19,177 nt of DNA, taken from contig JAICQE010000075.1 in NCBI GenBank assembly GCA_025938035.1, forward strand, positions 1-19,177, written 5' to 3'. Shown here piece after piece: positions 628 to 15,919 of this stretch. This stretch comes from Vicinamibacteria bacterium. GTDB lineage: Bacteria; Acidobacteriota; Vicinamibacteria; Vicinamibacterales; UBA2999. Positions within the stretch are counted from its first letter, which is position 1; every line of letters starts with the position of its first letter. A model generated the notes under the pieces. That model saw only the letters and a program-made list of their open reading frames with translations. It searched no databases and had not been told where the DNA came from. Made by a program: the position numbers and the translations under genes.

Positions 628-645
628 AAATGGTTTCTTCGCTGT

Positions 646-712
646 AATGCAGAATGCTGAATTCAGAATTCAGACGCCTGCATTCTGCATTCTGCATTCT
701 GAATTCTGAATT
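646..712. repeat. Two-arm heptamer repeat between infC and rpmI
   Basis: The left arm is four 7-mers (AATGCAG, AATGCTG, AATTCAG, AATTCAG; 646-673). The spacer is four bases (674-677). The right arm is five mirrored 7-mers (CTGCATT three times, CTGAATT twice; 678-712). The period is exactly seven throughout and the arms pair to form a long AT-rich hairpin in GC-rich surroundings. The element ends four bases from the infC stop codon (717-719) and fills the gap to rpmI. Confidence 0.85.
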
Positions 713-716
713 ACTT

Positions 717-1316
717 CTATTCCTCATCCCCCGGCTCCGCCGCCGCCACGGGCTCCGCCGACTTCTTCGGCACGTTCTTCCGCGTTGCCCGCCCGGCCAG
801 GATGACGTGCATCTGGTTGCCTTCCTGCCGCGGCATCGTCTCGGCCACGGCCTGGTCGCCGAGGTCCGCGATCAGCCGCTCCAGGATGCGGCGCCCGATT
901 TCCGGGTGCGCCATCTCGCGGCCGCGGAAGAAGATCGTCGCCTTCACCTTGTCGCCGTCCGCGAGGAAGCGTTCGATGTGCTTCCTCTTGAAGTCGTAAT
1001 CGTGCTCGTCGACCTTGGGGCGGAACTTGATCTCCTTCACCTCGATCACGCGCTGGTGCTTCTTCGCCTCGCGGGATCGTTTCTGCTCCTGGTACTGGTA
1101 TTTGCCGAAGTCCATGATTCGGCACACCGGAGGCACGGCAGTCGGCGAGATCTCGACCAGGTCGAGCCCCTTCTGACGCGCGATGGCGACCGCCTGCGGC
1201 GGCGGCATGATCCCGAGCTGCTGGCCGGTTTCGTCGATCACGCGAACTTCACGAACCCGGATGCGCTCGTTGGTGCGGACACGGTCGTCACGTCGGGGCG
1301 AACGATCGAAAGCTAT
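717..1316 (-). CDS. infC: Translation initiation factor IF-3, probable AUA start
   Basis: IF-3 binds the 30S subunit, keeps it apart from 50S and proofreads start codons. The first conventional start in frame (GTG, 1239-1241) would give 174 residues and cut off the conserved N-terminal block [11 protein letters not shown]. That block is plainly encoded upstream. The only well-placed start for it is ATA at 1314-1316, with AGGAG six bases before it (minus strand, 1327-1323), giving 199 residues. Rare start codons are a known hallmark of infC (AUU in E. coli) and allow IF-3 to repress itself. Further family blocks are [30 protein letters not shown] and [11 protein letters not shown]. The acidic Ala/Glu tail is variable in the family. 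Function is certain; the start is an inference. Confidence 0.93.
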
Positions 1317-1329
1317 AGCTGTCTCCTCT
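1314..1329 (-). promoter_or_regulatory. infC ribosome-binding site and AUA start codon
   Basis: On the minus strand AGAGGAG (1329-1323) is followed by ACAGCT and then ATA (1316-1314). The six-base spacing is ideal. No ATG, GTG or TTG lies in frame between the thrS stop region and the GTG at 1241, so the strong site has no conventional start to serve. Confidence 0.7.
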
Positions 1330-1333
1330 GCTA

Positions 1334-1368
1334 GTTGGTAGTTCGTAGTTGGTGGTTCGTAGTAGCTA
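1334..1368. repeat. One-arm heptamer repeat between thrS and infC
   Basis: Five consecutive 7-mers follow one another: GTTGGTA, GTTCGTA, GTTGGTG, GTTCGTA, GTAGCTA. The last contains the thrS stop codon (CTA on plus, 1366-1368). The units alternate, giving a 14-bp super-period. The repeat fills the gap up to the infC ribosome-binding site. Confidence 0.75.
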
Positions 1369-3309
1369 CGACGCTCCCTTTTTGACTATTTCTTCCTGCG
1401 CGTCCACGATGAACGCGCCAACGGCGCGCGCACCGAGATCCCCACCGGTTCGGCTGCGGACCGAGACGGTCCCTTCCGCTGCCTCCCGGTCGCCGGCGAC
1501 CAGCATGTAGGGGACCTTCTGAAGCTGCGCTTCCCGGATCTTATAGCCAATCTTCTCCTGCCGGTCGTCGAGCTCCACGCGCAGCCCGGCGGCGGCGAGC
1601 TGGTCGCGGACGCCCCTGGCGTACTCGAGGTGACGATCGGAAATCGGCATGACGACAGCCTGGACGGGGGCGAGCCACAGCGGCCAGGCGCCGGCGAAGT
1701 GTTCGATGAGCAGGCCGATGAACCGCTCGAACGTGCCGAAAATAGCCCGATGAATGACCACCGGGCGATGCTCGGCGTTGTCGGCGCCGATGTACTTGAG
1801 GTCGAACCGTTCAGGCATCTGGTAATCGAGCTGGAACGTAGCGCACTGCCACTTCCGCCCGATGGCATCCGTCACGTCGACGTCGATCTTCGGCCCGTAG
1901 AATGCGCCGTCGCCTTCGTCCACCGTAAAGCTGTGCCCCGTGCGTTCCAATGCCTCCTTCAACGACGCCTCGGCGTGGTCCCACGTCTCGATCTTGCCGA
2001 GAAACTCCTGCGGCCGCGTGGAGAGGCGGACTGAATACGGGAGCCCGAAGTCACGGTACACCTGCTTCATCAGCTCGAGCAGGCGCGCGACTTCGTCCGC
2101 AATCTGCGACTCCATCACGAAGCAGTGCGCGTCGTCCTGGCTGAGTTGCCGGACCCGGGTCAGCCCCGACAGCACGCCCGATGCTTCGTTGCGATGCAGC
2201 GGAGTCTGCTCGTGGAAGCGGAGCGGCAGGTCGCGATAGCTGCGGACCTCGGACGCAAAGACCAGGAAATGCCCGGGGCAGTTCATGGCCTTCATGGCCA
2301 TCTGCTCGTCATCCGCGTCCTTGCTGCCCCCCTCGACCAGAAACATGTTCTTGCGGTAGTGCGACCAGTGGCCGGAGGTCTCCCACAGCGCCTTGTTGAA
2401 CACGAGCGGCGTCTTGACCTCGACGTATCCAGCGGGGAACAGCACACTGCGCATGTAGTTCGCGAGGGTGTTGAACAGCGTCGTGCCGTTGCCGAGCCAG
2501 AACGCGGCCCCCGGCGCCCACTGGTGGAACATGAACAGCTTCTGGTCGCGGCCGATCTTCCGGTGATCGCGCTTCTTCGCCTCCTCGATCCGGTGCAGGT
2601 GTTCCTGCAGTTCCTTCTCGCTGAGGAACGCCGTCCCGTAGATGCGCTGCATCGGCTGGTTGCGCGCGTCGCCCTTCCAGTAGGCGTTGGACGCGTTGAG
2701 CAGCTTGAACGCCTTCAGCTTCCCCGTGGACGGCACGTGCGGTCCGACGCAGAAATCGACGAACGTCTCCCTGTCCTTGATCGTGTAGCAGGAGACCGTG
2801 TCCTGACCTTCCGTCTTCTCCTCGATCAGCTGGACCTTCAGCGGCTCGCCGCGACTGCCGAAGAAACGCTTTGCTTCCTCGCGCGGCCACATCTGCCGTT
2901 CGTACGGCAGATCCTGCTGCGCCAGCTCGCGCATCTTCTTCTCGATCAGCTCGAGGTCCTCGGGCACGAACGGCCGGCTGACGACGAAGTCGTAGAAGAA
3001 CCCTTCGTCGGTGGCGGGGCCGATGCCGCACTGCGCGCCCGGAAAGAGGTTCGTCACGGCGGCGGCCAGCAGGTGCGCCGTGCTGTGCCGGTAGAGCGCG
3101 AGCGCCTCGGCGCTGTCGGCGGTCACCAGACGGACCGACGCGTCCGCGTTGAGCGGATAGGCGAGGTCCACAAGTCGCCCGTCCACGACGGCGGCGAGCG
3201 AGGCCTTGGCCAGCCGCGGCGAAATTCCGGATGCGACGTCGCGCACCGGGGTGCCCGCCGGCACGCTGCGGCTGGAACCGTCTGGAAGTGTGATGTTGAC
3301 GTCGCTCAT
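1366..3309 (-). CDS. thrS: Threonyl-tRNA synthetase
   Basis: Class II synthetase that charges tRNA-Thr and edits mischarged serine. The 647 residues match the family length. An N-terminal TGS domain spans about 1-65. The editing domain carries H75-STA-H79 and C187-VGP-H191. The catalytic core has the zinc ligands C344 (AMNCPGH) and H395 (QDDAHCF), the motif 2 region HRNEASG...LTRVRQ and the motif 3 region [21 protein letters not shown]. The anticodon-binding domain is C-terminal. The ATG at 3307-3309 has no recognisable ribosome-binding site; the upstream bases belong to the 3313-3468 repeat. No T-box leader is visible. It heads the thrS-infC-rpmI-rplT cluster. Confidence 0.98.
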
Positions 3310-3312
3310 GGC

Positions 3313-3468
3313 AAGTGGAACAACTTCAAAAGTGGAAAAGTGGAAAAGTGGAAAAGTAAGTTAAAAGTACGTTTCGGAGCGACGGGTGGTACCCGTTACT
3401 TCGACCCTTCCAACTTTTTCCACTTTTCCACTTTTCCAGTTTTCCACTTCTTCCACTTGTTCCACTTT
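3313..3468. repeat. Two-arm octamer repeat between tRNA-Val and thrS
   Basis: The left arm (3313-3359) repeats AGTGGAAA with period 8. The right arm (3411-3468) repeats the mirror unit TTCCACTT six times, two of them offset by a single base. The 51-base centre holds the hairpin ACGGGT/ACCCGT with a GGT loop (3382-3396). The two-arm design matches the 646-712 element but with an 8-bp unit. It occupies the leader of thrS. Confidence 0.8.
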
Positions 3469-3473
3469 CATCG

Positions 3474-3512
3474 GCTCGCCAACAGAAGCTCGCGTAGCGA
3501 AGACTGGCGAGC
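3474..3512. repeat. Hairpin just downstream of tRNA-Val
   Basis: GCTCGCCA (3474-3481) and TGGCGAGC (3505-3512) form a perfect 8-bp stem around a 23-base loop. It follows the 3' end of the tRNA on the minus strand. There is no run of T after it, so it is not a standard intrinsic terminator. It could be a processing signal or another dispersed palindrome. Confidence 0.45.
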
Positions 3513-3518
3513 GAAGGT

Positions 3519-3595
3519 TGGTAGGCGCGGGTGGACTCGAACCACTGACCTCCTCCGTGTCAGGGAGGCGCTCTAACCAACTGAGCTACGCGCCT
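3519..3595 (-). tRNA. tRNA-Val (anticodon GAC), CCA encoded
   Basis: Read on the minus strand, the acceptor stem AGGCGCG/CGCGCCT pairs perfectly and is followed by A73 and an encoded CCA (3521-3519). The D stem is GCTC/GAGC. The anticodon stem CCTCC/GGAGG closes the loop CTGACAC, giving anticodon GAC for valine. The T loop is TTCGAGT; the T stem has one A-C mismatch at its base. The gene reads as intact. Without CCA it ends at 3522. Confidence 0.95.
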
Positions 3596-3644
3596 ATATC
3601 TACTGCAAAAATCAGGTGTTAACCCGAACGGCCAGTATACCAGA

Positions 3645-3693
3645 GGGCTCAGGGCTCAGGGCTCAGGGCTCAGGGCTCAGGCCTCAGGCCCCA
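3645..3693. repeat. Heptamer tandem repeat upstream of tRNA-Val
   Basis: Five perfect copies of GGGCTCA (3645-3679) are followed by two degenerate ones, GGCCTCA and GGCCCCA. The period is 7. This is a single arm with no mirror arm. It lies in the gap between hup and tRNA-Val. Confidence 0.85.
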
Positions 3694-3698
3694 GGCAG

Positions 3699-3751
3699 AG
3701 AGCGGGCCGTGCGAGCCGACCACCGGGTCGTCGGGCCGCAGGGTCCGCTCT
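3699..3751 (-). other. Possible 3' hairpin of hup
   Basis: AGAGCGG (3699-3705) and CCGCTCT (3745-3751) can pair around a GC-rich centre. This begins about 20 bases past the hup stop codon on the minus strand. No T-tract follows, so it is at most a weak terminator or a stability element. Confidence 0.25.
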
Positions 3752-3770
3752 GAATTGTGGCGAGGACGGT

Positions 3771-4043
3771 CTAGCGAACGGCGTCTTTGAGCGCCTTGCC
3801 GGCGCTGAAGCGGACGACGCGACGCTTGGGAATCTTGATGGCGGCGCCGGTCTGCGGGTTGCGGGCGGTGCGCGCCTTGCGCTGGGCGGTCTTGAAGGTG
3901 CCGAAGCCGACGAAGGTGATCGAATCACCGCGCTTCAACGATCTGGTGATGCCGTCGATGAGCGACTCAACGGCAGCGGACGCGCCCGCCTTGGACGAGC
4001 CTGTGTCTTTCGCGATCTTCGCGATCAGTTCCTGCTTGTTCAT
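3771..4043 (-). CDS. hup: HU-family DNA-binding protein
   Basis: HU is a small nucleoid protein that dimerises and bends DNA. The 90 residues begin MNKQELIAKIAKDTG and carry the family blocks GDSITFVGFGTF (39-50) and the arm motif RNPQTG (61-66) with the intercalating proline P63. Length and layout match canonical HU exactly. An in-frame extension upstream of the ATG is possible but is not HU-like. The chosen ATG (4041-4043) has GGAG five to six bases upstream. It has its own near-consensus promoter (4087-4115), so it is probably a strongly expressed single gene. Confidence 0.97.
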   Translation of the reverse strand: MNKQELIAKIAKDTGSSKAGASAAVESLIDGITRSLKRGDSITFVGFGTFKTAQRKARTARNPQTGAAIKIPKRRVVRFSAGKALKDAVR

Positions 4044-4078
4044 GAAATCTCCTCGGAGTCTGTTCGGATGGAAGTGAG

Positions 4079-4100
4079 GCGAGGCGGTTATACGCCTCGC
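4079..4100. promoter_or_regulatory. Perfect 8-bp inverted repeat around the hup -10 box
   Basis: GCGAGGCG (4079-4086) and CGCCTCGC (4093-4100) flank GTTATA, which is the -10 box of the hup promoter on the minus strand. A perfect dyad exactly around a -10 hexamer is what a repressor operator can look like. It would also act as a hairpin if transcription from upstream read through. Confidence 0.45.
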
Positions 4101-4115
4101 TCTCCGAGGTGTCAA
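4087..4115 (-). promoter_or_regulatory. Sigma-70-type promoter of hup
   Basis: On the minus strand TTGACA (4115-4110) is followed by a 17-base spacer and TATAAC (4092-4087). This is a perfect -35, ideal spacing and five of six bases in the -10. Transcription would start near 4080, giving a leader of about 37 bases that holds the hup ribosome-binding site. Confidence 0.75.
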
Positions 4116-4121
4116 TCGGAA

Positions 4122-4184
4122 ATCGTTCGGATCGTTCGAGACGTTCGAGTCGTTCGAGTCGTTCGAGTCGTTCGAGTCGTTCTA
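4122..4184. repeat. Nonamer tandem repeat beginning in the ctpA-like stop codon
   Basis: Seven 9-bp units related to GTCGTTCGA run from 4122 to 4184. The last reads GTCGTTCTA, and its CTA is the stop codon of the ctpA-like gene (4182-4184). Copies nearest the gene are identical, and those farther away diverge (ATCGTTCGA, ATCGTTCGG). There is no mirror arm. Confidence 0.85.
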
Positions 4185-5384
4185 CGCAGCCTGTTTCGCC
4201 GGCGCCGCGAGTCGTTCGATCGCCTTGTCGAGCGCCGCATCGACCTTCGGCGGATCGGCGCCGAAGTCGACGTCGGGTTCGGGGACGTGCACGTCGGGCG
4301 TGAGACCCTTCTCATGGATCGCTGCGCTCGACGGCGAGAGATATCGAACGCTGGTCAGCAGCAGCCCGCTTCCGTCCGGAAGCTTCACCAGTTGCTGCCT
4401 TGCGACGCGACCGATCGTTCGCTCGCCGACCAGTTCGGCGCGATTGTTGCCGTCAAGTGCGGCGGCGAACAGCTCTGCAGCGCCCGATGTCCCGGAGTCA
4501 ACCAGCAGGACGACAGGCGCAGCAACCGTGCCGTCGTTGGCCTGCGCGGCAATCGAATCTTTCCTGGTTTTGTCTTTCGCGTCGGGACGCGCCAGCGGAT
4601 CCCTGGACACCCGGACGGCCAGCGTGGCGCCGCGGACGAACAACCGTGCGGCTTCGATGCCGCTGTCCAGGTCGCCGCGCGAGGTGCCGCGGACGTCGAT
4701 CACGTACCGCGCCGCTCCGGTCTTGGCCAGCGCGTCGACGGCCTGCTTGATGCGGGCCGCCGAATTCGGCGTGAATTCAACGACGCGGATATATCCGGTG
4801 GATGCATTCGCCATTCGCGACGAGACCTCGGCACCCGACAGGCGCTCGCGGTTGACCGCCACCTCGTGCGGATCGGAGACACTGCCGCGAATGACGAGCA
4901 GCGTCACCTTTGATCCAGCCCCGCCGCGCAGCAGCCGGTTGCCCTCGAACGCTGAGATGTCGCGCGTGGACCTGCCGTCAATCGCGCGCAGGTAGTCCCC
5001 GGTGCGGATTCCTGCCTTTGCCGCCGGCGACCCGTCGCGCACCGACACCACGCGGAGGTAGTAGCCGCGCGTCAGATCGATGCCGAGTTCGCCCGCCGCG
5101 GGCGTGTCTTTCGACTCGAACGCCTTGACCAGGTCCGGGTTCAGGAACGCGCTGTCGACGTCGAGGCCGTCGGTCAGCCCGCGCATCGCGCCACGCATGG
5201 CCTTCTGCACGTCGACGTTCTCGACGTAGTTCTCGACCACCAGCTGCATCACGTCCTCGAAGACGCGCAGGCTGCGCAGCGTTTCGTCGCGCGTCATCGC
5301 CTGGCCCAGATAGCCGCCAATCAGCGTGAACGCAATGACCGGCGTGGAGACGACGAGGACCCAGAGGCGTGTGCGTGCTGTCAT
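4182..5384 (-). CDS. S41-family (CtpA-like) carboxyl-terminal protease, predicted inactive
   Basis: S41 proteases such as CtpA and Prc trim envelope proteins from the C-terminus. The 400-residue protein has an N-terminal membrane or signal segment (about 7-24), a PDZ domain (about 96-165) and an S41 fold ending LPDGSGLLLTSVRYLSPS...KGLTPDVHV. The catalytic positions are replaced. The nucleophile site, usually in SASASE, reads TSGAAE with Gly at 301. The lysine of the usual GKG motif, 22 residues after the Glu, is Arg 326. An active Ser-Lys dyad is therefore not expected. The ATG at 5382-5384 is chosen because GGGAG lies five bases upstream; a TTG four codons earlier is possible. The envC-like gene upstream is a common neighbour of ctpA. 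Family certain, inactivity inferred. Confidence 0.9.
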   Translation of the reverse strand: MTARTRLWVLVVSTPVIAFTLIGGYLGQAMTRDETLRSLRVFEDVMQLVVENYVENVDVQKAMRGAMRGLTDGLDVDSAFLNPDLVKAFESKDTPAAGELGIDLTRGYYLRVVSVRDGSPAAKAGIRTGDYLRAIDGRSTRDISAFEGNRLLRGGAGSKVTLLVIRGSVSDPHEVAVNRERLSGAEVSSRMANASTGYIRVVEFTPNSAARIKQAVDALAKTGAARYVIDVRGTSRGDLDSGIEAARLFVRGATLAVRVSRDPLARPDAKDKTRKDSIAAQANDGTVAAPVVLLVDSGTSGAAELFAAALDGNNRAELVGERTIGRVARQQLVKLPDGSGLLLTSVRYLSPSSAAIHEKGLTPDVHVPEPDVDFGADPPKVDAALDKAIERLAAPAKQAA

Positions 5385-5387
5385 TGA

Positions 5388-5458
5388 AACTCCCAACTAC
5401 CAACTCCCAACCTCCAACACGGCCGCCTTTTTGGGCGTTGGGCGTTGGGAATTGGGGC
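5388..5458. repeat. Two-arm heptamer repeat between envC-like and ctpA-like genes
   Basis: The left arm is four 7-mers (AACTCCC, AACTACC, AACTCCC, AACCTCC; 5388-5415). The spacer is 15 bases (5416-5430). The right arm is four mirrored 7-mers (TTGGGCG twice, TTGGGAA, TTGGGGC; 5431-5458). It begins three bases after the envC-like stop codon and ends three bases before the ctpA-like ATG. The last unit, read on the minus strand, supplies the GGGAG ribosome-binding site of that gene. Confidence 0.9.
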
Positions 5459-5461
5459 CGT

Positions 5462-6583
5462 TTACCTGGCCTTCAGCCATTGTAGGGGATCGACCGGACG
5501 ACCGTCGATCCGCATCTCGAAATAGAGCGCCGGAGGTCCGGCCGGCGCCGACCCGCTGCGGCCCAGCTCAGCCCCGGCGTCCACCGTGTCGCCCCGCTCG
5601 ACGCCAATCGTCCCGAGGTAGCCGTAGAGCGAATAGTTGTTGGCGCCGTGTTCGACAATGACCAGGTTGCCAAAGCCGATGAACGGGCCGGCCAGCCCCA
5701 CGGTACCGCCGTGGACGGCGCGGACGGCGGTGTTCTCGGCAACGGCGATCTCGATTCCGTTCCGGACGGCCGTGCCGCCAAGCCGGTCGGTGGCCTGTCC
5801 GAACCGGCCGACGAGCCGCCCGCCGGCGGGCCATTCGAGCGTGCCGCGGAAGGGGAGCAGCGGGACGACGACCGTTTCGCGAGGACGTCCTGCGTTGGCG
5901 GCTGAGAACTGCTGCTGCAGCCTGTCGTACGCGAGCTGCAGCTCGCCGGCATACTGCGCTGTGAGGTCGCGGCGTGAGTCGATGCGCGCGATGTGCGCCG
6001 ACAGATCCGCAACCGCCCGATCCGCGGCCGCGCGCGCCGTACGCGCCTCTCCTTCGCGCGCGCGAAGCTGTGCCGCCGACTGTTCCAGCGCGGCACGCTG
6101 CAGCGTCAGCTGCTGCAGCGTCCGGCGATGGTCGGCAATCCGTCGTTCGTTGATCGACGCCAGCGCCGCCACCACCCGCGTCGTTCGCGCGAACTCGCGC
6201 AGGTCGTCGGCGCCAAAGAGCAGGCGCGCGTAGCCGCTGCGTCCGCGCTTGTAGACGTCCACCAGCTGCGCCCGCAGATCGGGCAGCTGCGCCGTCCGCT
6301 GGAGTTCGAGGGTGGCGAGCCGCTCGGCCGCCTGAACCACCGCCGCCTGCGCGTCGGCGGCCGCTGTCTCGGCCTGCATCCATTCCTGCACGCGGAGGTC
6401 GCGCTGGATCTCCAGCTTGCGCAGCTCGCCGACGAGCGTCGTCGCCTCCCGGGCCAGCTGTTCGTTTTCGCGCTGGAGCGCGCGCAGGCGATCGTCGATC
6501 CGCCGGCTCTGCGGATCGGGTGCCTGTGCGTGGCTCACCGCCATGGCGCAGACGACGACCGCGAGGGAAAGAAGCCGTTTCAC
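5462..6583 (-). CDS. EnvC-like murein hydrolase activator with degenerate LytM (M23) domain
   Basis: EnvC-type proteins are periplasmic activators of cell-wall amidases at division. From the GTG at 6581-6583 the protein has 373 residues. It has a signal peptide (1-19, ending SHA), a long coiled coil (about 25-235) rich in Glu, Arg and Ala, and a C-terminal LytM fold (about 245-370). Zinc ligands of active M23 enzymes are missing: the HxGID site reads RNGIE (274-278), the LYAHL histidine is Y322, and the HLH site reads ALY (352-354). This matches the non-enzymatic EnvC pattern. A TTG six codons upstream is possible, but the GTG gives a cleaner signal peptide. It lies just upstream of the ctpA-like gene, as in many Gram-negatives. 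No ftsEX is present in the window. Confidence 0.9.
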   Translation of the reverse strand: MKRLLSLAVVVCAMAVSHAQAPDPQSRRIDDRLRALQRENEQLAREATTLVGELRKLEIQRDLRVQEWMQAETAAADAQAAVVQAAERLATLELQRTAQLPDLRAQLVDVYKRGRSGYARLLFGADDLREFARTTRVVAALASINERRIADHRRTLQQLTLQRAALEQSAAQLRAREGEARTARAAADRAVADLSAHIARIDSRRDLTAQYAGELQLAYDRLQQQFSAANAGRPRETVVVPLLPFRGTLEWPAGGRLVGRFGQATDRLGGTAVRNGIEIAVAENTAVRAVHGGTVGLAGPFIGFGNLVIVEHGANNYSLYGYLGTIGVERGDTVDAGAELGRSGSAPAGPPALYFEMRIDGRPVDPLQWLKAR

Positions 6584-6611
6584 ATCAAGTGGGTGCGACA
6601 ATTATACGGGC
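6584..6611. promoter_or_regulatory. 28-base divergent promoter region between envC-like gene and ruvX
   Basis: Only 28 bases separate the two GTG start codons. They contain ATTATA (6601-6606), which reads TATAAT on the minus strand and is a perfect -10 for the envC-like gene. Its start point would fall about ten bases before the GTG. A -10-like TATACG (6604-6609) faces ruvX. No clear -35 is seen for either direction. Leaders would be very short or absent. Confidence 0.4.
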
Positions 6612-7037
6612 GTGGGACGCATCGTTGGTCTCGACGTGGGAGAACGGCGCATCGGCGTCGCCGTGAGCGATCCGACCCGCACGCTCGCCCGTCCGCTGGC
6701 CGCGCTGCGGACGACGGGGCTCGACGGCGACGCGCTGAAGGTCAGTCTGGACGAAGTCGCGCGGCTGGGGGGAGAGGAGCCGCTCGACGCGATCGTGGTC
6801 GGACTGCCGCGCCGCCTCGACGGATCGCCGAACGAGATGACGCCGCGGATCGAACGGTTCGCGGCCCGGCTCCGCGAGCGCGCTGGACTGGCGGTGATCC
6901 TGCAGGACGAACGGCTGACGAGCGTGGAGGCGGAGAGCCGATTGGCGAGACGCGAGAAGAACTGGCAGGCACGAAAGGACCGCCTGGATGCCGCGGCGGC
7001 GGCGGTGATTCTGCAGGATTACCTCGACAACCACTGA
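6612..7037 (+). CDS. ruvX: RuvX/YqgF-family Holliday junction resolvase-like nuclease
   Basis: RuvX is an RNase H-fold nuclease linked to Holliday junction resolution and to pre-16S rRNA processing. The 141 residues begin MGRIVGLDVGERRIGVAVSD, with the first catalytic Asp at D8. They continue with IVVGLPRRLDG, the DERLTSVEAE block and RLDAAAAAVILQDYLD, which holds the last acidic residue. The family length is about 140. The GTG start is chosen because an upstream extension would run into the divergent gene and shows no homology. The stop codon overlaps the mltG start by one base (TGATG), so the two are translationally coupled. The ruvX-mltG pairing is widespread. Confidence 0.95.
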   Translation: MGRIVGLDVGERRIGVAVSDPTRTLARPLAALRTTGLDGDALKVSLDEVARLGGEEPLDAIVVGLPRRLDGSPNEMTPRIERFAARLRERAGLAVILQDERLTSVEAESRLARREKNWQARKDRLDAAAAAVILQDYLDNH

Positions 7038-8059
7038 TGAAAAAAGCGCTCGTCGGCCTCGTACTCCTGATCATCCTTGGCGGCGGCGCCCTGGCCGGCA
7101 TGGCCTGGACACGGATGCACACACCCTTCAAGGGTTATCCGGGCCCCGAACAGTTCGTGGAGATTCCCGTTGGTGCAGGTGCGGCCGTCATTCGCGAACG
7201 GCTGCTCGCCGCCGGCGTCGTGCAGGACGCGCTCACGCTGCGCCTTGCGCTGCGGTGGACCGGCGCGTCGCGTGACCTCCAGGCGGGCGAGTACCGCTTC
7301 GATCAGCCGATGACCGCGATCGAGGTCGTCGGCAAGATCGCGCGCGGCGACGTCTACGGGCAGCGTATTACCTTCCGCGAAGGCCTGACCATCCAGGAGA
7401 TGGCGGCGCTCTACGAATCGCGCGGCCTGGGCAGGGCGCGGGATTTCATCGACGCGTCGCGGAACGTCGCGCTGATTCGGGACCTCGACCCGGAGGCGCG
7501 GGACCTCGAGGGTTATCTGTTCCCCGACACCTATACCGTCGGCCGCACCGCGGTGGCCTCTCAGCTGATCGAAAGCATGGTGGCCGGATTCAGGGCCGCG
7601 TATCCGGGCGACGCATCGCAGCCCGCTGACCAGCCGCCGCTGACGACACGGCAGCTCGTGACGCTGGCGTCGCTCGTCGAGAAGGAAACGGGAAAACCCG
7701 AGGAGCGTCCGATCGTGTCGGCGGTCTATCGCAACCGGCTGCGCATCGGCATGGGCATGCAGGCCGATCCGACGGTGGTGTACGCGCTGCAGAAGGCCGG
7801 ACGGTACGACGGCAACATCCGCAAGGACGACCTCGCGATCAACTCTCCGTACAACACCTACAAGTACCCCGGACTTCCGCCGGGACCGATCGCGTCACCC
7901 GGCAAGGCGTCACTCGAGGCGGCGCTGCGGCCCGCCGACGTGGAGTTCCTCTATTTCGTCAGCCGCAATGACGGCTCACACGTCTTCGCGAAGACGCTGA
8001 CCGAACATAATCGCAACGTGCAGGAGTTCCAGGTCCGCTATTTCCAGCGGCGCCGCTAG
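7037..8059 (+). CDS. mltG: Endolytic murein transglycosylase
   Basis: MltG is a membrane-anchored lytic transglycosylase that cuts new glycan strands and sets their length. The 340 residues have one N-terminal membrane segment (about 4-24) and a LysM-like region. The YceG catalytic domain contains ASLVEKETG with the catalytic Glu at 215. Downstream blocks are VYRNRL..GM.MQADPTVVYAL, INSPYNTYKYPGLPPGPI and FVSRNDGSHVFAKTLTEHN, all typical. Length fits the family (about 340). It shares a stop/start overlap with ruvX. The gene ends at a set of hairpins (8062-8144) where it meets a convergent gene. Confidence 0.96.
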   Translation: MKKALVGLVLLIILGGGALAGMAWTRMHTPFKGYPGPEQFVEIPVGAGAAVIRERLLAAGVVQDALTLRLALRWTGASRDLQAGEYRFDQPMTAIEVVGKIARGDVYGQRITFREGLTIQEMAALYESRGLGRARDFIDASRNVALIRDLDPEARDLEGYLFPDTYTVGRTAVASQLIESMVAGFRAAYPGDASQPADQPPLTTRQLVTLASLVEKETGKPEERPIVSAVYRNRLRIGMGMQADPTVVYALQKAGRYDGNIRKDDLAINSPYNTYKYPGLPPGPIASPGKASLEAALRPADVEFLYFVSRNDGSHVFAKTLTEHNRNVQEFQVRYFQRRR

Positions 8060-8061
8060 GT

Positions 8062-8144
8062 GTAGCCGTGGGGCGAGCCTTGTCAGGCTCGCCTCGCGAA
8101 CCCGCAGGGTTCGCGCCACGGGCAATGCAGGCCACTCAGGCTAC
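8062..8144. repeat. Three-stem palindromic element between convergent genes
   Basis: Two perfect hairpins stand side by side: GGCGAGCC/GGCTCGCC with a 6-base loop (8072-8093) and GCGAACCC/GGGTTCGC with a 3-base loop (8096-8114). They are closed by CCGTGG (8066-8071) pairing with CCACGG (8116-8121), making a cloverleaf-like fold. An alternative outer pair is GTAGCC (8062-8067) with GGCTAC (8139-8144). It has no T-tract. It may act as a bidirectional terminator or be a REP-like dispersed element. Confidence 0.6.
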
Positions 8145-8154
8145 CCAGACCACC

Positions 8155-10851
<2,697 letters not shown>

Positions 10852-10869
10852 ACAAAGCTCCTTGCTGCA

Positions 10870-10897
10870 GGGATCGGGGATCAGGGATCGGGGATCA
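10870..10897. repeat. Heptamer tandem repeat between murI and the metalloprotease gene
   Basis: Four 7-mers alternate: GGGATCG, GGGATCA, GGGATCG, GGGATCA. A truncated copy (GGATCGC) follows. The alternation gives a 14-bp super-period, as in the 1334-1368 repeat. It lies in the leader of the metalloprotease gene, between a -10-like box and the ribosome-binding site. Confidence 0.8.
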
Positions 10898-10908
10898 GGA
10901 TCGCGCGA

Positions 10909-10914
10909 ATTATA
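10909..10914 (-). promoter_or_regulatory. Possible -10 box for the metalloprotease gene
   Basis: TATAAT on the minus strand stands out in GC-rich surroundings and overlaps the murI stop codon (10910-10912). No good -35 is seen 16 to 18 bases upstream. If real, it would drive the metalloprotease gene with a leader of about 50 bases that contains the heptamer repeat. Confidence 0.3.
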
Positions 10915-11752
10915 GCGCCGCGACCGGCCCGCCTTCGATGCCCAGCATCGTCAGCATCGCCGCAAGGTGTTGCGGGCTGCCGCTGGTGACGAAACGCGTA
11001 ATTCCGGCCGCGTCGTAGGGTCCGCCTCTAGGTGAACCTCCGTCGTAGTGTCCGCCTTCAGGCGGACCTGCCAGCAGCGACGCTTCCGCCAGCCGCCGCC
11101 GCAGCTCCCGGGCGACGGCCGCCGCGGGGTTGATCAGCGTGACAGCGGGGCCCGCAACGGAGGCAATGAGCGATTCCACGAAGGGGAAGTGCGTGCAGCC
11201 GAGGACGAGCGTGTCGGCGCCCTGTTCGACCAGCGGGCGGACAAACGAGGCGATGAGGTCGCGGGTCCTGGTGGTCGTGAGCTCCCCTTGTTCGATCTGT
11301 TCGACGAGGCCGGGACACGGCTGCGCCAGGATGCGCGCGCCGTTCGCCCAGGTTTCGGCGAGGCGCGCGAAACGCGGGCTGGCGATTGTCTGCCGGGTGG
11401 CGAGCACGCCGACGATGCCCGTTCGAGTGGCGGCGGCGGCGGGTTTCACGGCCGGCTCGATGGCGACGAACGGCAGCGGCCACCGGGCGCGGAGCGCTTC
11501 GACGGCCACGCCCGTGGCGGTGTTGCAGGCGACCACGATCGCCTTGGCGCGCTGATCGAGCAGGAACTCGACGATCCGGAACGCCCGCTCCTGAATCTCT
11601 TCGACCGGTTTGTCGCCGTAGGGAGCGTACGCGGAATCCGCCACGTAGATCAGGTTTTCGGCGGGCAGCTGCCGCTGGATCTCCTGCAGCACCGAGACGC
11701 CGCCGATTCCCGAATCGAAGACACCGATCGGGAGCGAGGCGGGCTCACTCAA
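10910..11752 (-). CDS. murI: Glutamate racemase with in-frame repeat insertion
   Basis: MurI converts L-glutamate to D-glutamate for peptidoglycan. The 280 residues show [13 protein letters not shown] with D13-S14, the first catalytic cysteine in VACNTAT (C76) and the second in LGCTHFP (C186, H188). Near the C-terminus, residues about 229-250 ([22 protein letters not shown]) do not look like MurI. They are encoded by two tandem 30-bp repeat units. The family sequence resumes at [10 protein letters not shown]. The start is a TTG (11750-11752) overlapping the last codons of the upstream hydrolase gene by eight bases, without a clear ribosome-binding site, so coupling is likely. All catalytic residues are present and the enzyme should work. 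Confidence 0.95.
11011..11070. repeat. Two tandem 30-bp palindromic units inside murI
   Basis: Units 11011-11040 and 11041-11070 match at 24 of the first 29 positions. The second contains the palindrome GTCCGCCTTCAGGCGGAC. The unit length is a multiple of three, so the murI frame is kept, adding about ten residues per copy. The core matches the intergenic palindrome at 382-409. Confidence 0.85.
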
Positions 11753-12590
11753 CGTAGGCCGGCGACTTGGGAAGCTTGGCGTGCGTGGCCATGTCGTGTT
11801 CGATCCAGAGCTCGGCGCCCGTCTGCTTCAGGAGCGCCTCGACCTTTGCGCGCGCGGCACGTGACTGGTCCGCGTTGAACTCGAAGGTCGGCAGGATGCC
11901 CCTCGCGCGCTCCTCCGGGTAGTGATACAGGTCGCCGGCCAGGAGCACCGGTCCGCGCTTCGGGAGGCGCACGAGCAGCACCTGATGGCCCGGCGTGTGC
12001 CCGGGCGCGGAAATCACCCGCACGGTGCCGTCGCCGAAGACATCGAAGTCTTCGTTGTCGAGGATCCGCGTTTTGGCGTTCTTCAGCGCGCTGTAGGTGG
12101 CCGGCTGAATGATCCCCTGCGGCTTTTCGCTGAACATGAAGTCGCGTTCCGCCTTCTGGGTGATCCACGTCGAGCCGGCGAAGGCGTTGGCGTTGCCGGT
12201 GTGGTCGGCGTGGTAGTGCGAGAGGGCGAAGTAGGTCACGTCCGCCGGCCGGTAGCCGGCGGCGGCAAGCTGCGGGAGCAGCGGCTTCGTCGCCGACTGC
12301 ACGCCCTCGGTGACGGTTGCGCCGTCGCCCTTGAACGCGCTGTCGGGGATGCCGCCGGCGTCGAACTGCAGCGTCCCGCGCGGATGGACGATCAGATACG
12401 AGCTGTTGACGAAGTCAGGCTCTTTGACTTCTTCGCGCGCGAGGTTGAAGAGCTTCGTGTCGAGCCCGCGGATGAAGCCGTTCTCGAAGACGTAGAGGCG
12501 GACGGAGGTAACGGTCGCCGGCTTGTTCTGCGCGGCGAGTGAAAGCGTAATCGCGAGGGTTGCTGCCGTGGTCGCGATGATTCGAATCAT
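11745..12590 (-). CDS. Exported metallo-beta-lactamase-fold hydrolase (AHL-lactonase-like)
   Basis: The 281-residue protein has an N-terminal signal peptide (about 1-20, ending AAQ), so it should act in the periplasm. The metal site is complete: H125-Y-H127-A-D129-H130, then H198 in PGHTPGH, D220 in LLAGD and H265 in WIEHD. The layout and the LLAGDLYHYPEE block resemble N-acyl-homoserine lactone lactonases. However, this superfamily hydrolyses many esters and lactones, so the substrate is open. The ATG (12588-12590) has AGGAG six bases upstream. Its stop overlaps the murI start. A 317-bp inverted repeat fills the space upstream to nadK. Confidence 0.88.
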   Translation of the reverse strand: MIRIIATTAATLAITLSLAAQNKPATVTSVRLYVFENGFIRGLDTKLFNLAREEVKEPDFVNSSYLIVHPRGTLQFDAGGIPDSAFKGDGATVTEGVQSATKPLLPQLAAAGYRPADVTYFALSHYHADHTGNANAFAGSTWITQKAERDFMFSEKPQGIIQPATYSALKNAKTRILDNEDFDVFGDGTVRVISAPGHTPGHQVLLVRLPKRGPVLLAGDLYHYPEERARGILPTFEFNADQSRAARAKVEALLKQTGAELWIEHDMATHAKLPKSPAYVE

Positions 12591-12605
12591 GTGTGTCTCC
12601 TGCCC

Positions 12606-12922
12606 GAGGCGACGGAGGTACGGAGGAAACGGCTTTACAGGAGGAACGAAGGAACGGAGACGAACGGAGTATTTTCAGTCTTGAACCACGAAGACCACGA
12701 AGATCACGAAGAGGCCGTTCGAGTGGCCGCCGAAGGCGGCCTGCCGCGACGTGAGCGATCGCAGATACAAACCGCACAGGTGCCAACGGCGGCTTGTATC
12801 TGCGGTCGCTCGCGTCACGGCTGTCGGCGTGCGTCGCACGCCGACAATCGAACGGCCCTCCGTTCGTCTTCGTTCCTCCGTTGCTCCTGTGAGGCCGTTA
12901 CCTCCGTCCCCTCCGTTACCTC
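12606..12922. repeat. 317-bp composite inverted repeat filling the MBL-nadK gap
   Basis: This element accounts for almost the whole 325-base gap. The outer arms (12606-12669 and 12858-12922) consist of ACGGAGG-like units and match each other in inverted orientation at about four positions in five. Next inside, GAGGCCGTTCGA (12711-12722) mirrors TCGAACGGCCCTC (12848-12860). The core has GTGAGCGATCGCAGATACAA (12751-12770) mirrored, with one mismatch and a 5-base insertion, at 12794-12818. Two perfect hairpins also lie inside: GGCCGCC/GGCGGCC (12725-12741) and GTCGGCGTGCG/CGCACGCCGAC (12823-12845). Three 9-mers of ACCACGAAG type sit at 12685-12711. The right arm includes the nadK stop codon. No gene is seen inside. 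Confidence 0.85.
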
Positions 12923-13830
12923 TCTCCCCACTTCAATTTCTCGCGCAGCACCTCGAAGTAACTCCGCGCGGGGGCTTTCACCAGCCGCAGGCAGCGCTCC
13001 GACTTGCGCACGGCGACCATGTCGCCCTTCTGCAGCGGATACCCGGCCTGGCCGTCGTAGGTGACGAAGATCTCGTCGCCCTCCGTGGTCATATTCGGGC
13101 GCACTTCGATCGTCTCGCTGCCAGGAATCACGACCGGCCGGTTGGTCAGCGTGTGCGGCGCGATCGGCGTGATGCCGATGGCGTCAACGCGCGGATGGAC
13201 GATGGGGCCGCCCGCCGCCAGGTTGTACGCCGTCGATCCGGTGGCGCTGGTAATAATCAGGCCGTCGGCCTTCACCTTCGTCACGAGTCCGGTGCTGACG
13301 GAGATCGAAAGCTCGATGATTCGCGACAGTGCAGCCTTGGTGAAGACGACGTCGTTCAGCACGATGCGCGAATCGAACCGCTCCCGCGACCGATACGCGT
13401 CCGCGGCCAGCATCGCGCGCTCGTCGATGGTGGCGTTGCCGTCGACGGCCGACTGCAGCGCCGGATAGAGCTCGTCGATCCGCGTTTCGGTCAGGAACCC
13501 GAGGCTGCCGAAGTTGACGCCGAGGATCGGCGTGTCGCGCCCGGTCAGCGCGATTCGCGTCGCCATGCTGAGCAGTGTGCCGTCGCCGCCCATCACCACG
13601 ATCAAATCGGCATGCCGCGGAATCTCGTCGCGCGAATACGACTTGGCCGCCGTGCCGCTGCCGGCCAGCGCGGCCGTCTCGGTTTCGAAGACCGCTTCGA
13701 TCTGTTTGTCGCGCAGCCAGGAGGCGAGCCGTTCGAGGTGATCGGAGGCGGCCCGCAGGCCGCGCTTGGCCACGATGCCGACGCGCGTGATACGCGCAGG
13801 CGCAGAAGACGACTCCGGTGACGAGGTCAT
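12916..13830 (-). CDS. nadK: NAD kinase
   Basis: NAD kinase phosphorylates NAD to NADP. The 304 residues carry the signature GGDGT (81-85) in VVMGGDGTLL, NFGSLGFLTE (106-115), the ND pair (159-160) in VLNDVV and the ADGLIITSATGSTAYNLAAGGPIV block (188-211). The length is close to the family's roughly 290. The ATG overlaps the tlyA stop as ATGA, indicating coupling. The final residues (about GER) and the stop codon lie in the right arm of the 12606-12922 inverted repeat. Confidence 0.97.
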   Translation of the reverse strand: MTSSPESSSAPARITRVGIVAKRGLRAASDHLERLASWLRDKQIEAVFETETAALAGSGTAAKSYSRDEIPRHADLIVVMGGDGTLLSMATRIALTGRDTPILGVNFGSLGFLTETRIDELYPALQSAVDGNATIDERAMLAADAYRSRERFDSRIVLNDVVFTKAALSRIIELSISVSTGLVTKVKADGLIITSATGSTAYNLAAGGPIVHPRVDAIGITPIAPHTLTNRPVVIPGSETIEVRPNMTTEGDEIFVTYDGQAGYPLQKGDMVAVRKSERCLRLVKAPARSYFEVLREKLKWGER

Positions 13831-14558
13831 GACGCGCGGAGATGGAGGAGGAACTCGACGTTCCCCTTCTGGCCCGTAATGGGGGAAGGGGTCGAGCCCG
13901 CTGGTCTCAATCCTATCGCAGCCGCCGCGGCCGCGACTTCCTCGAGCACCCGGTCGTGAACGGTGGCGTCGTGGATGATGCCTTTGCGCACCTCGCCGCG
14001 ACCCGCCTCGAACTGCGGCTTGACCAGCGCCACGACGTCTGCTCCCGGCCGGAGGAGAGGCGGTATGACGGGGAAGATCTGCCGCAGCGAGATGAACGAG
14101 ACGTCGATCACCACGAGATCGACCGGTCCGGGAAGATCCGCGAGCGTGAGGTGACGCGCGTTGAACCCCTCGACGACGATCACCCGCGGATCGTTGCGAA
14201 TCTTCCAGTCAATCTGCCCATGTCCGACGTCGAGCGCGACGACGCGCGCGGCGCCGCGCTGCAGCAGGACATCGGTGAAGCCGCCGGTCGACGCGCCGAT
14301 GTCGAGGCATTCACGGCCATCGGCCGGGATGCGGAAGGTGTCCAGCGCGTGCGCGAGCTTCAGTCCGCCGCGGCCGACGTACGGATGATCGGGCTCGGCG
14401 AGCGCGATGGCGGCGTCGCGCTCGACGGGCATGCCCGCTTTCCCGGCCGGTTTGCCGTCGACACGCACGTGTCCGGCGAGAATCAGCGCGCGCGCACGTT
14501 CGCGCGACGGCGCAAGGCCGCGGTCGACGACGAGCTGATCGAGGCGGGTTTTCGGCAT
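13827..14558 (-). CDS. tlyA: TlyA-family rRNA (cytidine-2'-O)-methyltransferase
   Basis: TlyA methylates ribose of cytidines in 16S and 23S rRNA and, in mycobacteria, confers capreomycin sensitivity. The 243 residues have an N-terminal S4 RNA-binding domain (about 3-60; RLDQLVVDRGLAPSRERARALI). An FtsJ-type methyltransferase fold follows, with SAM motif LDIGASTGGFTD (85-96), VDLVVIDVSFISLRQ and KPQFEAGR (180-187). The ATG at 14556-14558 is chosen because longer reading runs into the prenyl synthase gene and shows no homology. It lies between that gene and nadK, with an ATGA overlap to nadK. Confidence 0.96.
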   Translation of the reverse strand: MPKTRLDQLVVDRGLAPSRERARALILAGHVRVDGKPAGKAGMPVERDAAIALAEPDHPYVGRGGLKLAHALDTFRIPADGRECLDIGASTGGFTDVLLQRGAARVVALDVGHGQIDWKIRNDPRVIVVEGFNARHLTLADLPGPVDLVVIDVSFISLRQIFPVIPPLLRPGADVVALVKPQFEAGRGEVRKGIIHDATVHDRVLEEVAAAAAAIGLRPAGSTPSPITGQKGNVEFLLHLRAS

Positions 14559-14565
14559 CAGGTTG

Positions 14566-14583
14566 GTCCGGCTGAAGCCGGGC
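14566..14583. repeat. Short palindrome between prenyl synthase gene and tlyA
   Basis: CCGGC (14568-14572) and GCCGG (14577-14581) flank TGAA. Read on the plus strand, GTCCGGCTGAAGCCGG would encode VRLKP, the start of a peptide pattern (VRLKPDTT) often met in Acidobacteriota repeats. It has the same TGAA-loop design as the 382-409 palindrome. It fills the 26-base gap. Confidence 0.45.
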
Positions 14584-14584
14584 C

Positions 14585-15493
14585 TTAATTCGATCGTTCG
14601 ACGATCCAGCGCCCGATCCCGAGCAGGCGCGGATCGGCGACTCCCGCCGCGGCAAGCACGCTCTCCGCCCGTTCGAGACATTCGCGCGCCATCCGCCGCG
14701 ACGCCTCCACGCCGTACATGGACGGATATGTCGGCTTGCCGGACGCCGCATCCTTGCCGGCGGTCTTGCCCAGATCGGCGGAGACGCCCTCGACGTCGAG
14801 GATGTCGTCGACGATCTGAAACGCCAGCCCGAACTCGCCAGATGCGTCGTCGATCGCCTCGATTTGCTGCTGCGACCCGCCGCCCATGACAGCGCCGGCA
14901 CGGCCGGCTGCGCGGAGGAGTGCTCCGGTCTTCTTGCTGTGCATGATGCGCACGCCGTGCTCGTCGAGCGGCGCGGGGAGACTTCCACGCGCGTCGGGCG
15001 CGACCGTCGCCAGATCGATCGCCTGACCGCCGACCATGCCGATCGGACCTGCCGCCGCGGCAATGATTCGAATCACTTCGAGCTTGCGCGCGATCACCCC
15101 GGGATCCGAACTGCGCGGCTCGTTCGACAGGTGCGAGAACGCGTGCGTCAACAGCCCGTCGCCGGCCAGAATCGCGATGCCCTCGCCGGCGACGACGTGC
15201 AGGGTCGGCCGGCCGCGCCGCATCGTGTCGTTGTCCATGGCCGGCAGGTCGTCGTGGATGAGCGAGTAGGTATGAATCAGCTCGATGGCACAGGCCGCCG
15301 GCAGCGCGAGCGCGCGATCGCCGCCGACGGCGTCTGCGCTGGCCAGGCACAGGATCGGCCGCAGCCGCTTGCCTCCCGCATGCAGGCTGTACGACATCGC
15401 GTCATGCACGACCGGCGGGCACTCGGGAACGGGGGGCAGGATGGCCGCGAGCGCGTGCTCGACCTCCGCCCGGCGAGCGTCGATGTAGTCCAT
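14585..15493 (-). CDS. ispA: Short-chain polyprenyl diphosphate synthase (farnesyl/geranylgeranyl type)
   Basis: This enzyme condenses isopentenyl diphosphate with allylic diphosphates to make C15 or C20 chains used for quinones and lipid carriers. The 302 residues show GGKRLRP (40-46), the first Asp-rich motif DDLPAMD (81-87) with RRGRPTLH after it, KKTG (187-190), and the second motif DDILD (229-233). Tyr 76, five residues before the first Asp motif, fits a short-chain product, but C15 and C20 cannot be told apart here. The ATG (15491-15493) has no ribosome-binding site; its leader is the heptamer repeat at 15495-15579. The gene follows xseB, a common order; dxs, often next in such clusters, is absent. 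Confidence 0.94.
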   Translation of the reverse strand: MDYIDARRAEVEHALAAILPPVPECPPVVHDAMSYSLHAGGKRLRPILCLASADAVGGDRALALPAACAIELIHTYSLIHDDLPAMDNDTMRRGRPTLHVVAGEGIAILAGDGLLTHAFSHLSNEPRSSDPGVIARKLEVIRIIAAAAGPIGMVGGQAIDLATVAPDARGSLPAPLDEHGVRIMHSKKTGALLRAAGRAGAVMGGGSQQQIEAIDDASGEFGLAFQIVDDILDVEGVSADLGKTAGKDAASGKPTYPSMYGVEASRRMARECLERAESVLAAAGVADPRLLGIGRWIVERSN

Positions 15494-15494
15494 G

Positions 15495-15579
15495 AAAGGT
15501 AAAAGTCAAAGGGCAAAAGTCAAAAGAGGAGTTCAGAGGTCGCTCTTTTGACCTTTGCCTTTTGCCTTTTGACTTTCGT
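15495..15579. repeat. Two-arm heptamer repeat spanning the xseB 3' end and the ispA leader
   Basis: The left arm is five 7-mers (AAAGGTA, AAAGTCA, AAGGGCA, AAAGTCA, AAAGAGG; 15495-15529). The spacer is 15 bases (15530-15544) and holds the xseB stop codon (15533-15535). The right arm is five mirrored 7-mers (CTTTTGA, CCTTTGC, CTTTTGC, CTTTTGA, CTTTCGT; 15545-15579). The right arm is translated as the C-terminal tail of XseB. The left arm starts two bases before the ispA ATG. Confidence 0.9.
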
Positions 15580-15808
15580 CCTCGTTCATCAGGGTATTCG
15601 TGGCCTCCTGAAGCTGGCCGCGCTCGTTGAGGATTTCGATACGGCGCTCGGCCTCTTCCAGCCGCGCGTGGCAGAACCGCGAGAGCTGCACGCCGCGCTC
15701 GAACAGCTGCAGCGACTGCTCGAGCGGAATGTCGCCGTCCTCGAGCTTCTTGACGATCGTGTCGAGCTCGGTCAACGCGGCTTCGAAGTCTTTGATCGTT
15801 GGATCCAT
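15533..15808 (-). CDS. xseB: Exodeoxyribonuclease VII small subunit with repeat-derived tail
   Basis: XseB is the small helical subunit that decorates XseA in exonuclease VII, which degrades single-stranded DNA. The 91 residues contain the family core: FEAALTELDTIVKKLEDGDI, PLEQSLQLFERGVQLSRFCH and LEEAERRIEIL. The usual length is about 75-85. The last residues, ESQKAKGKGQKSDL, are encoded by the right arm of a heptamer repeat and are unlike the rest. They are probably a recent extension. The start is the ATG at 15806-15808; it has no ribosome-binding site and follows another heptamer repeat. xseA lies just upstream, so the two subunits are likely co-transcribed. Confidence 0.95.
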   Translation of the reverse strand: MDPTIKDFEAALTELDTIVKKLEDGDIPLEQSLQLFERGVQLSRFCHARLEEAERRIEILNERGQLQEATNTLMNEDESQKAKGKGQKSDL

Positions 15809-15813
15809 ATGGT

Positions 15814-15919
15814 GAGGCCGAAGGGCTAAGGCCTACGGCCTAAGTGAAGAACGAAGTCTACGGTTCTTGCTTCGGCCTTGACCAGCCCTTGGGCCTTGGG
15901 CCTTACCCCTGCGGCCTTC
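15814..15919. repeat. Two-arm heptamer repeat between xseA and xseB
   Basis: The left arm is four 7-mers (GAGGCCG, AAGGGCT, AAGGCCT, ACGGCCT; 15814-15841). The centre (15842-15870) holds a small hairpin AAGAAC/GTTCTT (15847-15868). The right arm has 7-mers TTCGGCC, TTGACCA, GCCCTTG, GGCCTTG, GGCCTTA (15871-15905), then CCCCTGC and GGCCTTC. The xseA stop codon is in GGCCTTA (15903-15905), and the last two units encode the XseA C-terminus. Confidence 0.75.

Follow-up and report, generated by a model that had tools for sequence, protein, structure and literature searches.

Short-period repeat arrays at gene junctions in Vicinamibacteria: candidate families of dispersed hairpin elements

What fills the gaps between ordinary genes with tandem repeats whose unit length stays at 7 to 9 nt while the unit itself changes from one gap to the next? 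The question is raised by a 19,177-nt stretch of a Vicinamibacteria bacterium genome (assembly GCA_025938035.1, contig JAICQE010000075.1, positions 1 to 19,177 of the forward strand), here called the window, in which such arrays, some of them built as two mirrored arms, lie between genes. An earlier reading, made from the sequence alone, took them for one family with locus-specific units and suggested a hairpin-copying polymerase, templated slippage or selection on shape. We consider it probable that the window gaps instead hold several families of short, non-autonomous, non-coding dispersed hairpin elements that were copied into gene junctions, with slippage altering their copy number. The heptamer hairpins of this Acidobacteriota lineage have the look of small mobile DNA of a class so far overlooked, similar to one described in Xanthomonas.

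The arrays lie where the sequence-only reading placed them, and they are far from what base composition would give. Across the 13 window gaps of a hand-made gene list (1,490 bp in total), the summed array score at period 7 was 145, against a mean of 0.5 and a maximum of 9 in 50 dinucleotide shuffles; period 8 scored 42 (shuffles 0.2) and period 9 scored 69 (shuffles 0.5). Periods 4 to 15 were tested, and the gaps scored 0 at periods 4-6, 10-13 and 15; the score of 99 at period 14 is an echo of period 7. A near-relative sample consisting of the window and 80 thrS loci (1.27 Mb) held 129, 34 and 23 arrays of period 7, 8 and 9, and one order-2 Markov copy of it held 1, 0 and 3. In a larger sample of 121 sequences (2.0 Mb) there are 269 arrays of period 7-9. 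Period-7 arrays are mostly non-coding in 140 of 171 cases, though non-coding sequence is 12.6% of the DNA, and so are 56 of 63 period-8 arrays. The period-9 arrays are a mixture: 13 of 35 are mostly non-coding, and since the other 22 are coding, part of the period-9 counts reflects protein repeats. Arrays of period 6 and 12 are mostly coding; only 2 of 19 at period 6, and 1 of 29 at period 12, are non-coding. Occurrence is patchy farther out: 39 stretches of other Acidobacteriota (747 kb, thrS identity 43-54%) yielded 37, 9 and 6 arrays of period 7, 8 and 9, none of them in 24 stretches and 33 of the 52 in loci L151, L170, L182 and L183.

The idea that each locus has its own unit did not survive comparison between genomes. 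Within the 19 kb of the window the unit does change from gap to gap, except that the arrays at 1332-1363 and 5388-5458 have a unit type in common (CCAACTA/AACTACC), but this is misleading genome-wide. Over 221 sites in 55 genomes, an identical unit is found in 143 of 2,674 same-genome site pairs and in 43 of 21,636 between-genome pairs, so that unit sharing at unlinked gaps is 27 times commoner within genomes than between them; with G001 left out, 18 of 259 same-genome pairs share a unit. All arrays together, coding ones counted, use 175 distinct canonical units, many of them not G-rich, and each genome reuses its own vocabulary. G001, the genome of locus L001 (the window thrS is 83% identical to L001 in protein and 81% identical to G001 in DNA), has several to many gaps filled with GGTAGCC/GGTAGGT, CGCACCGT, CACAGAGA/CACCGAGA, AAAAGTGG or CAACTCC. 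G004 uses GGTGGCT, TGAGGATG, AGATTTC, CAGCCCT and others. Some vocabulary crosses genomes: the AAAAGTGG/AAGTGGAAG family of window positions 3312-3470 occurs in G001 too, and the CAACTCC type is likewise common to G001 and the window. The AATKCAG tandem of the window is present in 3 of 43 genomes of the family of G001, mostly in G029 (7 matches at 6 places). There, the arm GTAATTCAGAATTCAGAATGCAGAATGCAGA of locus L293 equals the arm of the window element at 644-714 over 31 consecutive bases, 16 of which were preselected, L293 having been found by a 16-base pattern of AATKCAG units; the similarity stops at the limits of the element, and the loop differs.

In most of the families tested, variant units also follow a common order in copies at separate loci. 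For 11 families in three genomes, arms from separate loci were set against 60 versions with their units shuffled; arm matching was loose (up to 3 mismatches per unit), which admits some chance arms, and no family contributed more than 45 arms (45 of 123 for GGTAGCC, 45 of 46 for TGAGGGC). In G004 the z-scores were 5.1 for AGATTTC, 4.2 for GGTGGCT, 4.0 for GGGTAATT and 3.3 for TGAGGATG, each reached by 0 of 60 shuffles. For G001, CGCACCGT gave 2.8 (reached by 1 of 60), and for G005, GTCGTTG gave 2.5 (0 of 60) and GGTGGCT 2.3 (2 of 60); all of these z-scores, those of G004 included, omit pairs within a locus and the L252/L253 overlap in G005, which lowered CGCACCGT from 4.7 to 2.8 and GTCGTTG from 3.3 to 2.5. 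Variant order is common to different loci in 6-7 of 11 families. AGATTTC arms in both orientations approach AGATTTC-AGATTTM-AGARTTC-AGATTTC-AGATTGA, several with AGATTGA at the loop side, and three elements at L023 align across both arms plus the loop. A shared unit order is the pattern to be looked for in dispersed elements that have a body plan; independent local slippage would not be expected to give it.

Comparison of orthologous gaps, which the sequence-only reading had proposed, found arrays present, absent or swapped between relatives. Genomes G018, G020 and G022 are 93-95% identical around thrS, and the array at L205 16245 (G022) is cleanly absent from the other two. Compared with G005, L246 17408, L248 9091, L242 13320 and L240 13352 likewise give filled and empty sites, and the filled site L012 15030 faces an empty one in L070. 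At gene junctions common to L012 and L070 (about 88% identity), some arrays are present in only one of the two and others belong to different families. In a systematic comparison, 106 distinct insertions were recovered, and 31 of these contain arrays. From G004 to G005, 33 array sites could be mapped (7 more could not): 10 carry the same family, 9 a different array, 6 at most 30 nt, 4 other sequence without an array, and 4 sequence of similar or greater length without an array score, so that 23 of 33 were not scored as the same family. L070 14527, one of the four stretches of similar or greater length, faces the element at L012 12526. In the reverse direction, 17 sites mapped and 6 did not, with 6 the same, 8 different, 2 empty and 1 without an array score. 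By eye, these site counts include some coding repeats, mainly of period 9. Separately, about 106 nt found at L070 14122-14228 and at other loci, with at least 10 relatives having them, are missing at L012 12262; they probably lie within a gene.

The window itself can be read against two relatives, L003 and L002. Its gene content is mostly on the minus strand. Three genes we take, from order and sequence, to be rplT, rpmI and infC; thrS, glutamate racemase and prenyl-diphosphate synthase match above curated cut-offs, and the HU-like, S41-type peptidase, M23-type, metallo-hydrolase and NAD-kinase-like genes are named from matches below them. A tRNA-Val gene is also present. The closest relatives of the window thrS are Acidobacteriota metagenome-assembled genomes, many labelled Vicinamibacteria or Vicinamibacterales. 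The ten array places, with z-scores of RNA folding against shuffles where given, are:

644..714 (-), two-arm hairpin in the infC-rpmI gap, units AATTCAG/AATGCAG, gene strand reading GTAATTCAGAATTCAGAATGCAGAATGCAG...; z -3.6
1332..1363 (-), weak array, mainly one arm, in the thrS-infC gap, units CCAACTA/CGAACTA
3312..3470 (-), two-arm hairpin in the tRNA-Val to thrS gap, 8/9-nt units AAAAGTGG/AAGTGGAAG; z -9.4, the fold covering 150 of its 159 nt
3644..3696 (-), one-arm array of TGAGCCC (AGGGCTC on the plus strand) in the gap between tRNA-Val and the HU gene; no hairpin, z +1.2
4122..4182 (-), one-arm array of the 9-nt unit CGAACGACT in the gap from HU to the S41 peptidase; no hairpin, z +2.3
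5388..5458 (-), two-arm hairpin in the gap between the S41-peptidase and M23-type genes, units AACTCCC/AACTACC plus CAACGCC; z -3.9
10868..10903 (-), one-arm array of GATCCCC/GATCCCT adjoining the glutamate racemase gene; no hairpin, z -0.4
12606..12930 (-), nested inverted repeats, with outer arms ACGGAGG/CCTCCGT, CACGAAG 9-mers and an inner TGAGCGATCGCAGATACAA hairpin
15495..15579 (-), two-arm hairpin upstream of the prenyl-synthase gene (14585-15493), units AAAGTCA/AAAGGCA; z -4.9
15814..15922 (-), two-arm hairpin built of AGGCCCA/AGGCCTA and related units; z -4.2

Between the same anchors of the infC-rpmI gap, L003 has 31 nt and no array, and L002 has a heptamer-like run that is visible by eye and falls under the detection score. 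By eye, neither relative has an array like 1332-1363 in the thrS-infC gap. L003 carries an AAGTTCG array between tRNA-Val and thrS, where the gap in L002 is only about 21 nt long; it carries a TTGAAG heptamer array in the HU-S41 gap and a TTGGTGG-type array in the S41-M23 gap, and by eye it lacks the TGAGCCC array of 3644-3696. The place of 15495-15579 is taken by other sequence in L002, and the anchors of 15814-15922 are there separated by 62 nt with no array by eye. Conversely, the rpmI-rplT gap has no array in the window and, by eye, a heptamer-like hairpin under the detection score in L003. The 12606-12930 region appears by eye to be several nested inverted repeats and not a single two-arm array; its part at 12600-12740 folds no better than shuffles (z +0.7). 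The nesting in the 325-nt gap at 12591-12915 looks as if elements had landed within elements.

Arrays sit close to the ends of genes. The 111 array-bearing gaps between same-strand genes give a median distance of 10 nt from the upstream stop to the array and of 31 nt from the array to the next start; 68 arrays are nearer to the stop and 42 nearer to the start. The array abuts or overlaps the upstream stop (within 2 nt) in 38 gaps, where uniform placement expects 12 (maximum 18 in 200 draws), and abuts the next start in 13. The stop is TAG in 21 of these 38 cases, compared with 615 of 1,795 overall, and at L012 15030, L024 16798 and L026 16814 the element itself supplies the stop codon (TA^ATG or TA^AATG becoming TAG...). 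Array density is 1.84 per kb in convergent gaps, 0.92 in same-strand gaps and 0.70 in divergent gaps. Counted per gap, arrays occur in 13 of 124 divergent, 111 of 1,377 same-strand and 23 of 142 convergent gaps, so divergent gaps are not avoided.

An element would then be about 60-160 bp long, with about 3-6 imperfect units of 7-9 nt in each arm and a mostly variable loop. An existing element may be copied into a gene junction by an activity acting in trans, or a hairpin may be captured by microhomology. Tolerance at gene junctions, and not exact targeting, could account for its location, with selection retaining insertions after which the gene still ends in a stop codon, its own or one brought by the element. 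Replication slippage or deletion may later add or remove units or a whole arm.

Several observations weigh against dispersed elements of this kind. Four of the 11 families gave no unit-order signal (TGAGGGC 0.7, GAATGCAG 0.3, GGTAGCC 1.0, CACAGAGA -0.6), so copying does not account for everything, and the CACAGAG copies examined have unlike loops. At the threshold used, 179 of the 269 arrays have no mirrored partner, and 35 have a same-direction partner at the same score, as extended arrays would give. No constant target-site duplication emerged, the flanking repeat being 0-4 bp over the junctions examined. The four cleanest junctions taken as non-coding are flanked by CGC (L205), TGAA (L246), TGA (L248) and no repeat (L240 13352); less clean ones have 3 bp (L028 3477) or 0 (L242 13320, L012 15030, L024 16798), and L046 4029 and L252 4287, with few mismatches and by eye coding, have no flanking repeat. 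Some sites scored as empty could be precise losses. None of 30 loci of a candidate mobilising enzyme, the Y1 transposase (1.8-3.4 kb each), has arrays on both sides. Finally, two pairs of orthologous arrays seem to differ in nearly every unit at the same column: L191 5588-5618 and L193 2646-2677 (CCCCAGC/CCCGAGC; G018 and G020), and L012 19525-19548 and L070 21517-21594 (GAAGTAA/GAACTAA). Odd variants seem to hold their places in these two cases, judged by eye, and such column-wise switching is not predicted by simple copying.

A bolder version, which we consider unlikely, is that these are a distinct class of mobile DNA whose enzyme reads hairpin shape and unit period and not a fixed sequence, so that the vocabulary would be replaceable between species while architecture and stop neighbourhood stay. 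Column-switched orthologous arrays would then be footprints of vocabulary change.

Dispersed elements have to be weighed first against purely local slippage, in which a chance hairpin or short repeat in each gap grows in steps of 7-9 nt set by the polymerase footprint and nothing moves between loci. That polymerases slip at heptamers has been proposed in print, as cited by PMC4692102, and this suits the restriction of gap periods to 7-9, the four families without shared unit order and the differences in copy number or arms between orthologous arrays (L012 17356 and L070 19259, where the former lacks most of one arm present in the latter; L012 17914 and L070 19917). It does not explain why unlinked gaps of one genome reuse units at 27 times the between-genome rate, why variant order is common to different loci, why L023 copies are alike in the loop, or how 31 nt of the window recur at L293, and entire two-arm elements are absent from relatives. 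We think slippage on its own an unlikely explanation.

The position of arrays beside stops could also reflect selected sites for regulation or RNA processing. Each unit family would be bound by a protein that recognises DNA or RNA, and the two arms would form a hairpin on the 3' side, on which the stability of the mRNA or the translation of the following gene depends. A translational role has been proposed for the TAACTGA repeats of Beggiatoaceae (PMC4679880), and all five two-arm window elements fold as RNA beyond shuffles, with z from -3.6 to -9.4. The one-arm window arrays that were folded (3644-3696, 4122-4182 and 10868-10903) do so no better than shuffles, so a function that depends on RNA folding could apply to some of the arrays only. 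Presence and unit are, moreover, often not kept at orthologous genes, and terminator-like sites in the window are in no clear excess (18, against 12.2 in shuffles with a standard deviation of 4.0). Selection for sites of this kind seems improbable to us, and two-arm copies would most likely play a passive part, as hairpins toward the 3' end of transcripts; we assign them no regulatory role.

Two specific RNA identities were tried and rejected. In a scan for a hairpin followed by a T-run consensus, none of 5 minus-strand matches lies on a listed array; two matches lie beside arrays, at 3612-3627 near 3644-3696 and at 3489-3501 near 3312-3470. With no strand-matched site on arrays and no clear excess, we set intrinsic terminators aside. 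Rfam covariance models at gathering thresholds matched only the tRNA in the window and no known RNA at the arrays, so identity with an Rfam RNA was dropped too.

Mirrored arms themselves are well established by the scan of relatives: for 90 of the 269 arrays an inverted partner lies no more than 150 bp away, where 1.3 are expected with flanks from other loci, and the median loop is 30 nt. As a general plan the two arms proposed by the sequence-only reading hold in part, being clean in 5 of the 10 window places. That one arm was written and then copied back as a mirror by a templated polymerase, with a new unit every time, is very unlikely: it would account for the excess of mirrored arms and for L012 11541, whose arms have unit variants in common (those of L132 do not), but loci do not each bring a new unit, and in none of 41 two-array elements does one arm match the other in register at p<0.05 (the 30 informative elements have a mean z of 0.12), a test of low power, in which later slippage could have scrambled the order. 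The test used unit-shuffled arms as control, covered 41 of 47 two-array elements found, and is weak for short arms.

How do these arrays relate to known repeats? The short tandemly repeated repetitive (STRR) sequences of cyanobacteria are tandem heptamers between genes, as here; they are not known to us to have mirrored arms or orthologous swapping, no detailed search having been made. Miniature inverted-repeat transposable elements are, like the arrays, short and non-coding, with inverted ends and presence/absence at orthologous sites; they differ in that no constant target-site duplication is seen here and no parent transposon was found, none having been sought with the family ends. The closest published case is that of the intergenic heptamer repeats GGGAATC in Xanthomonas and GGGGA(C/T)T in Nostoc, as described in PMC4692102, which also mentions three heptanucleotides in Calothrix. 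As there, the heptamers have fixed and variable positions, are intergenic, lie near the upstream stop, and form many arrays per genome and inverted pairs. The sequence-only reading knew of no description of mirrored arms with changing units; mirrored heptamer arrays are in print, for that paper counts 70 and 75 convergent inverted GGGAATC pairs in two Xanthomonas genomes. Tandem intergenic heptamers, convergent inverted pairs and a stop-side position are found in both, whereas in place of a single G-rich unit of GGGANTN type there are 175 distinct units here, and the one unit family per Xanthomonas genome contrasts with several families and periods of 7, 8 and 9. In Xanthomonas, 83% of arrays lie in the same gene context in both species compared, with length and sequence varying (PMC4692102), whereas most mapped orthologous sites here (23 of 33) differ in family or presence.

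Marine Beggiatoaceae likewise have numerous intergenic heptamer arrays, of TAACTGA, also seen in some Cyanobacteria and Bacteroidetes, but with one unit, nearly always direct (169 sets, one indirect) and mostly just 5' of start codons, according to PMC4679880. Repetitive extragenic palindromes (REPs) and bacterial interspersed mosaic elements, with their REP-associated tyrosine (Y1) transposases, are also dispersed small intergenic hairpins, and such transposases occur in some Acidobacteria (PMC3733652); here the arms are of tandem units, by eye there is no general GTAG/CGTC tag, and no Y1 locus among the 30 is flanked by arrays. Our search of the literature on Acidobacteria, Planctomycetes and mirrored heptamers, with few subscription papers within reach, found no other description. 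What we have not found in print is a vocabulary of many families together with swapping at orthologous gaps, mirrored heptamer arrays being already known.

The Y1 transposase (PF01797) was followed up as a possible partner of the arrays. It is present in 13 of 20 genomes of our choosing, and some array occurs in 6 of 30 Y1 loci, in L276 and L282 more than 1 kb downstream of the match; with none of the 30 flanked, the partnership is unsupported. Y1 is found in 11 of 12 array-rich and 2 of 8 array-poor genomes by our own sorting, judged from the stretches at hand, a difference that genome size confounds and on which we do not rely. G099, G111 and G123 (L170, L183 and L182), which are array-rich and outside the group of the window, have 9, 11 and 6 Y1 matches, several of them strong. 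The elements examined have, by eye, no common GTAG/CGTC tag at the hairpin foot, and GTAG occurs in most units of the GGTAG family of G001.

Several groups of bacteria have heptamer repeats, on whose origin there is no agreement. With many independent filled and empty cases here, slippage, transposition and templated synthesis give distinct, testable predictions. Gaps beside essential genes (infC, rpmI, rplT and thrS) have been repeatedly overwritten over a short evolutionary distance, a point to consider when operons and 3' ends are annotated or intergenic sequences compared.

The window also contains two small REP-like hairpins, at 380-412 (TCCGCCTGAAGGCGGAAGC) and 11030-11070 (GTCCGCCTTCAGGCGGACC), the latter within the frame called glutamate racemase. 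A similar sequence, GTGTCCGGCTTGAGCCGGACC, is nested in the loops of array elements at L023 and L012.

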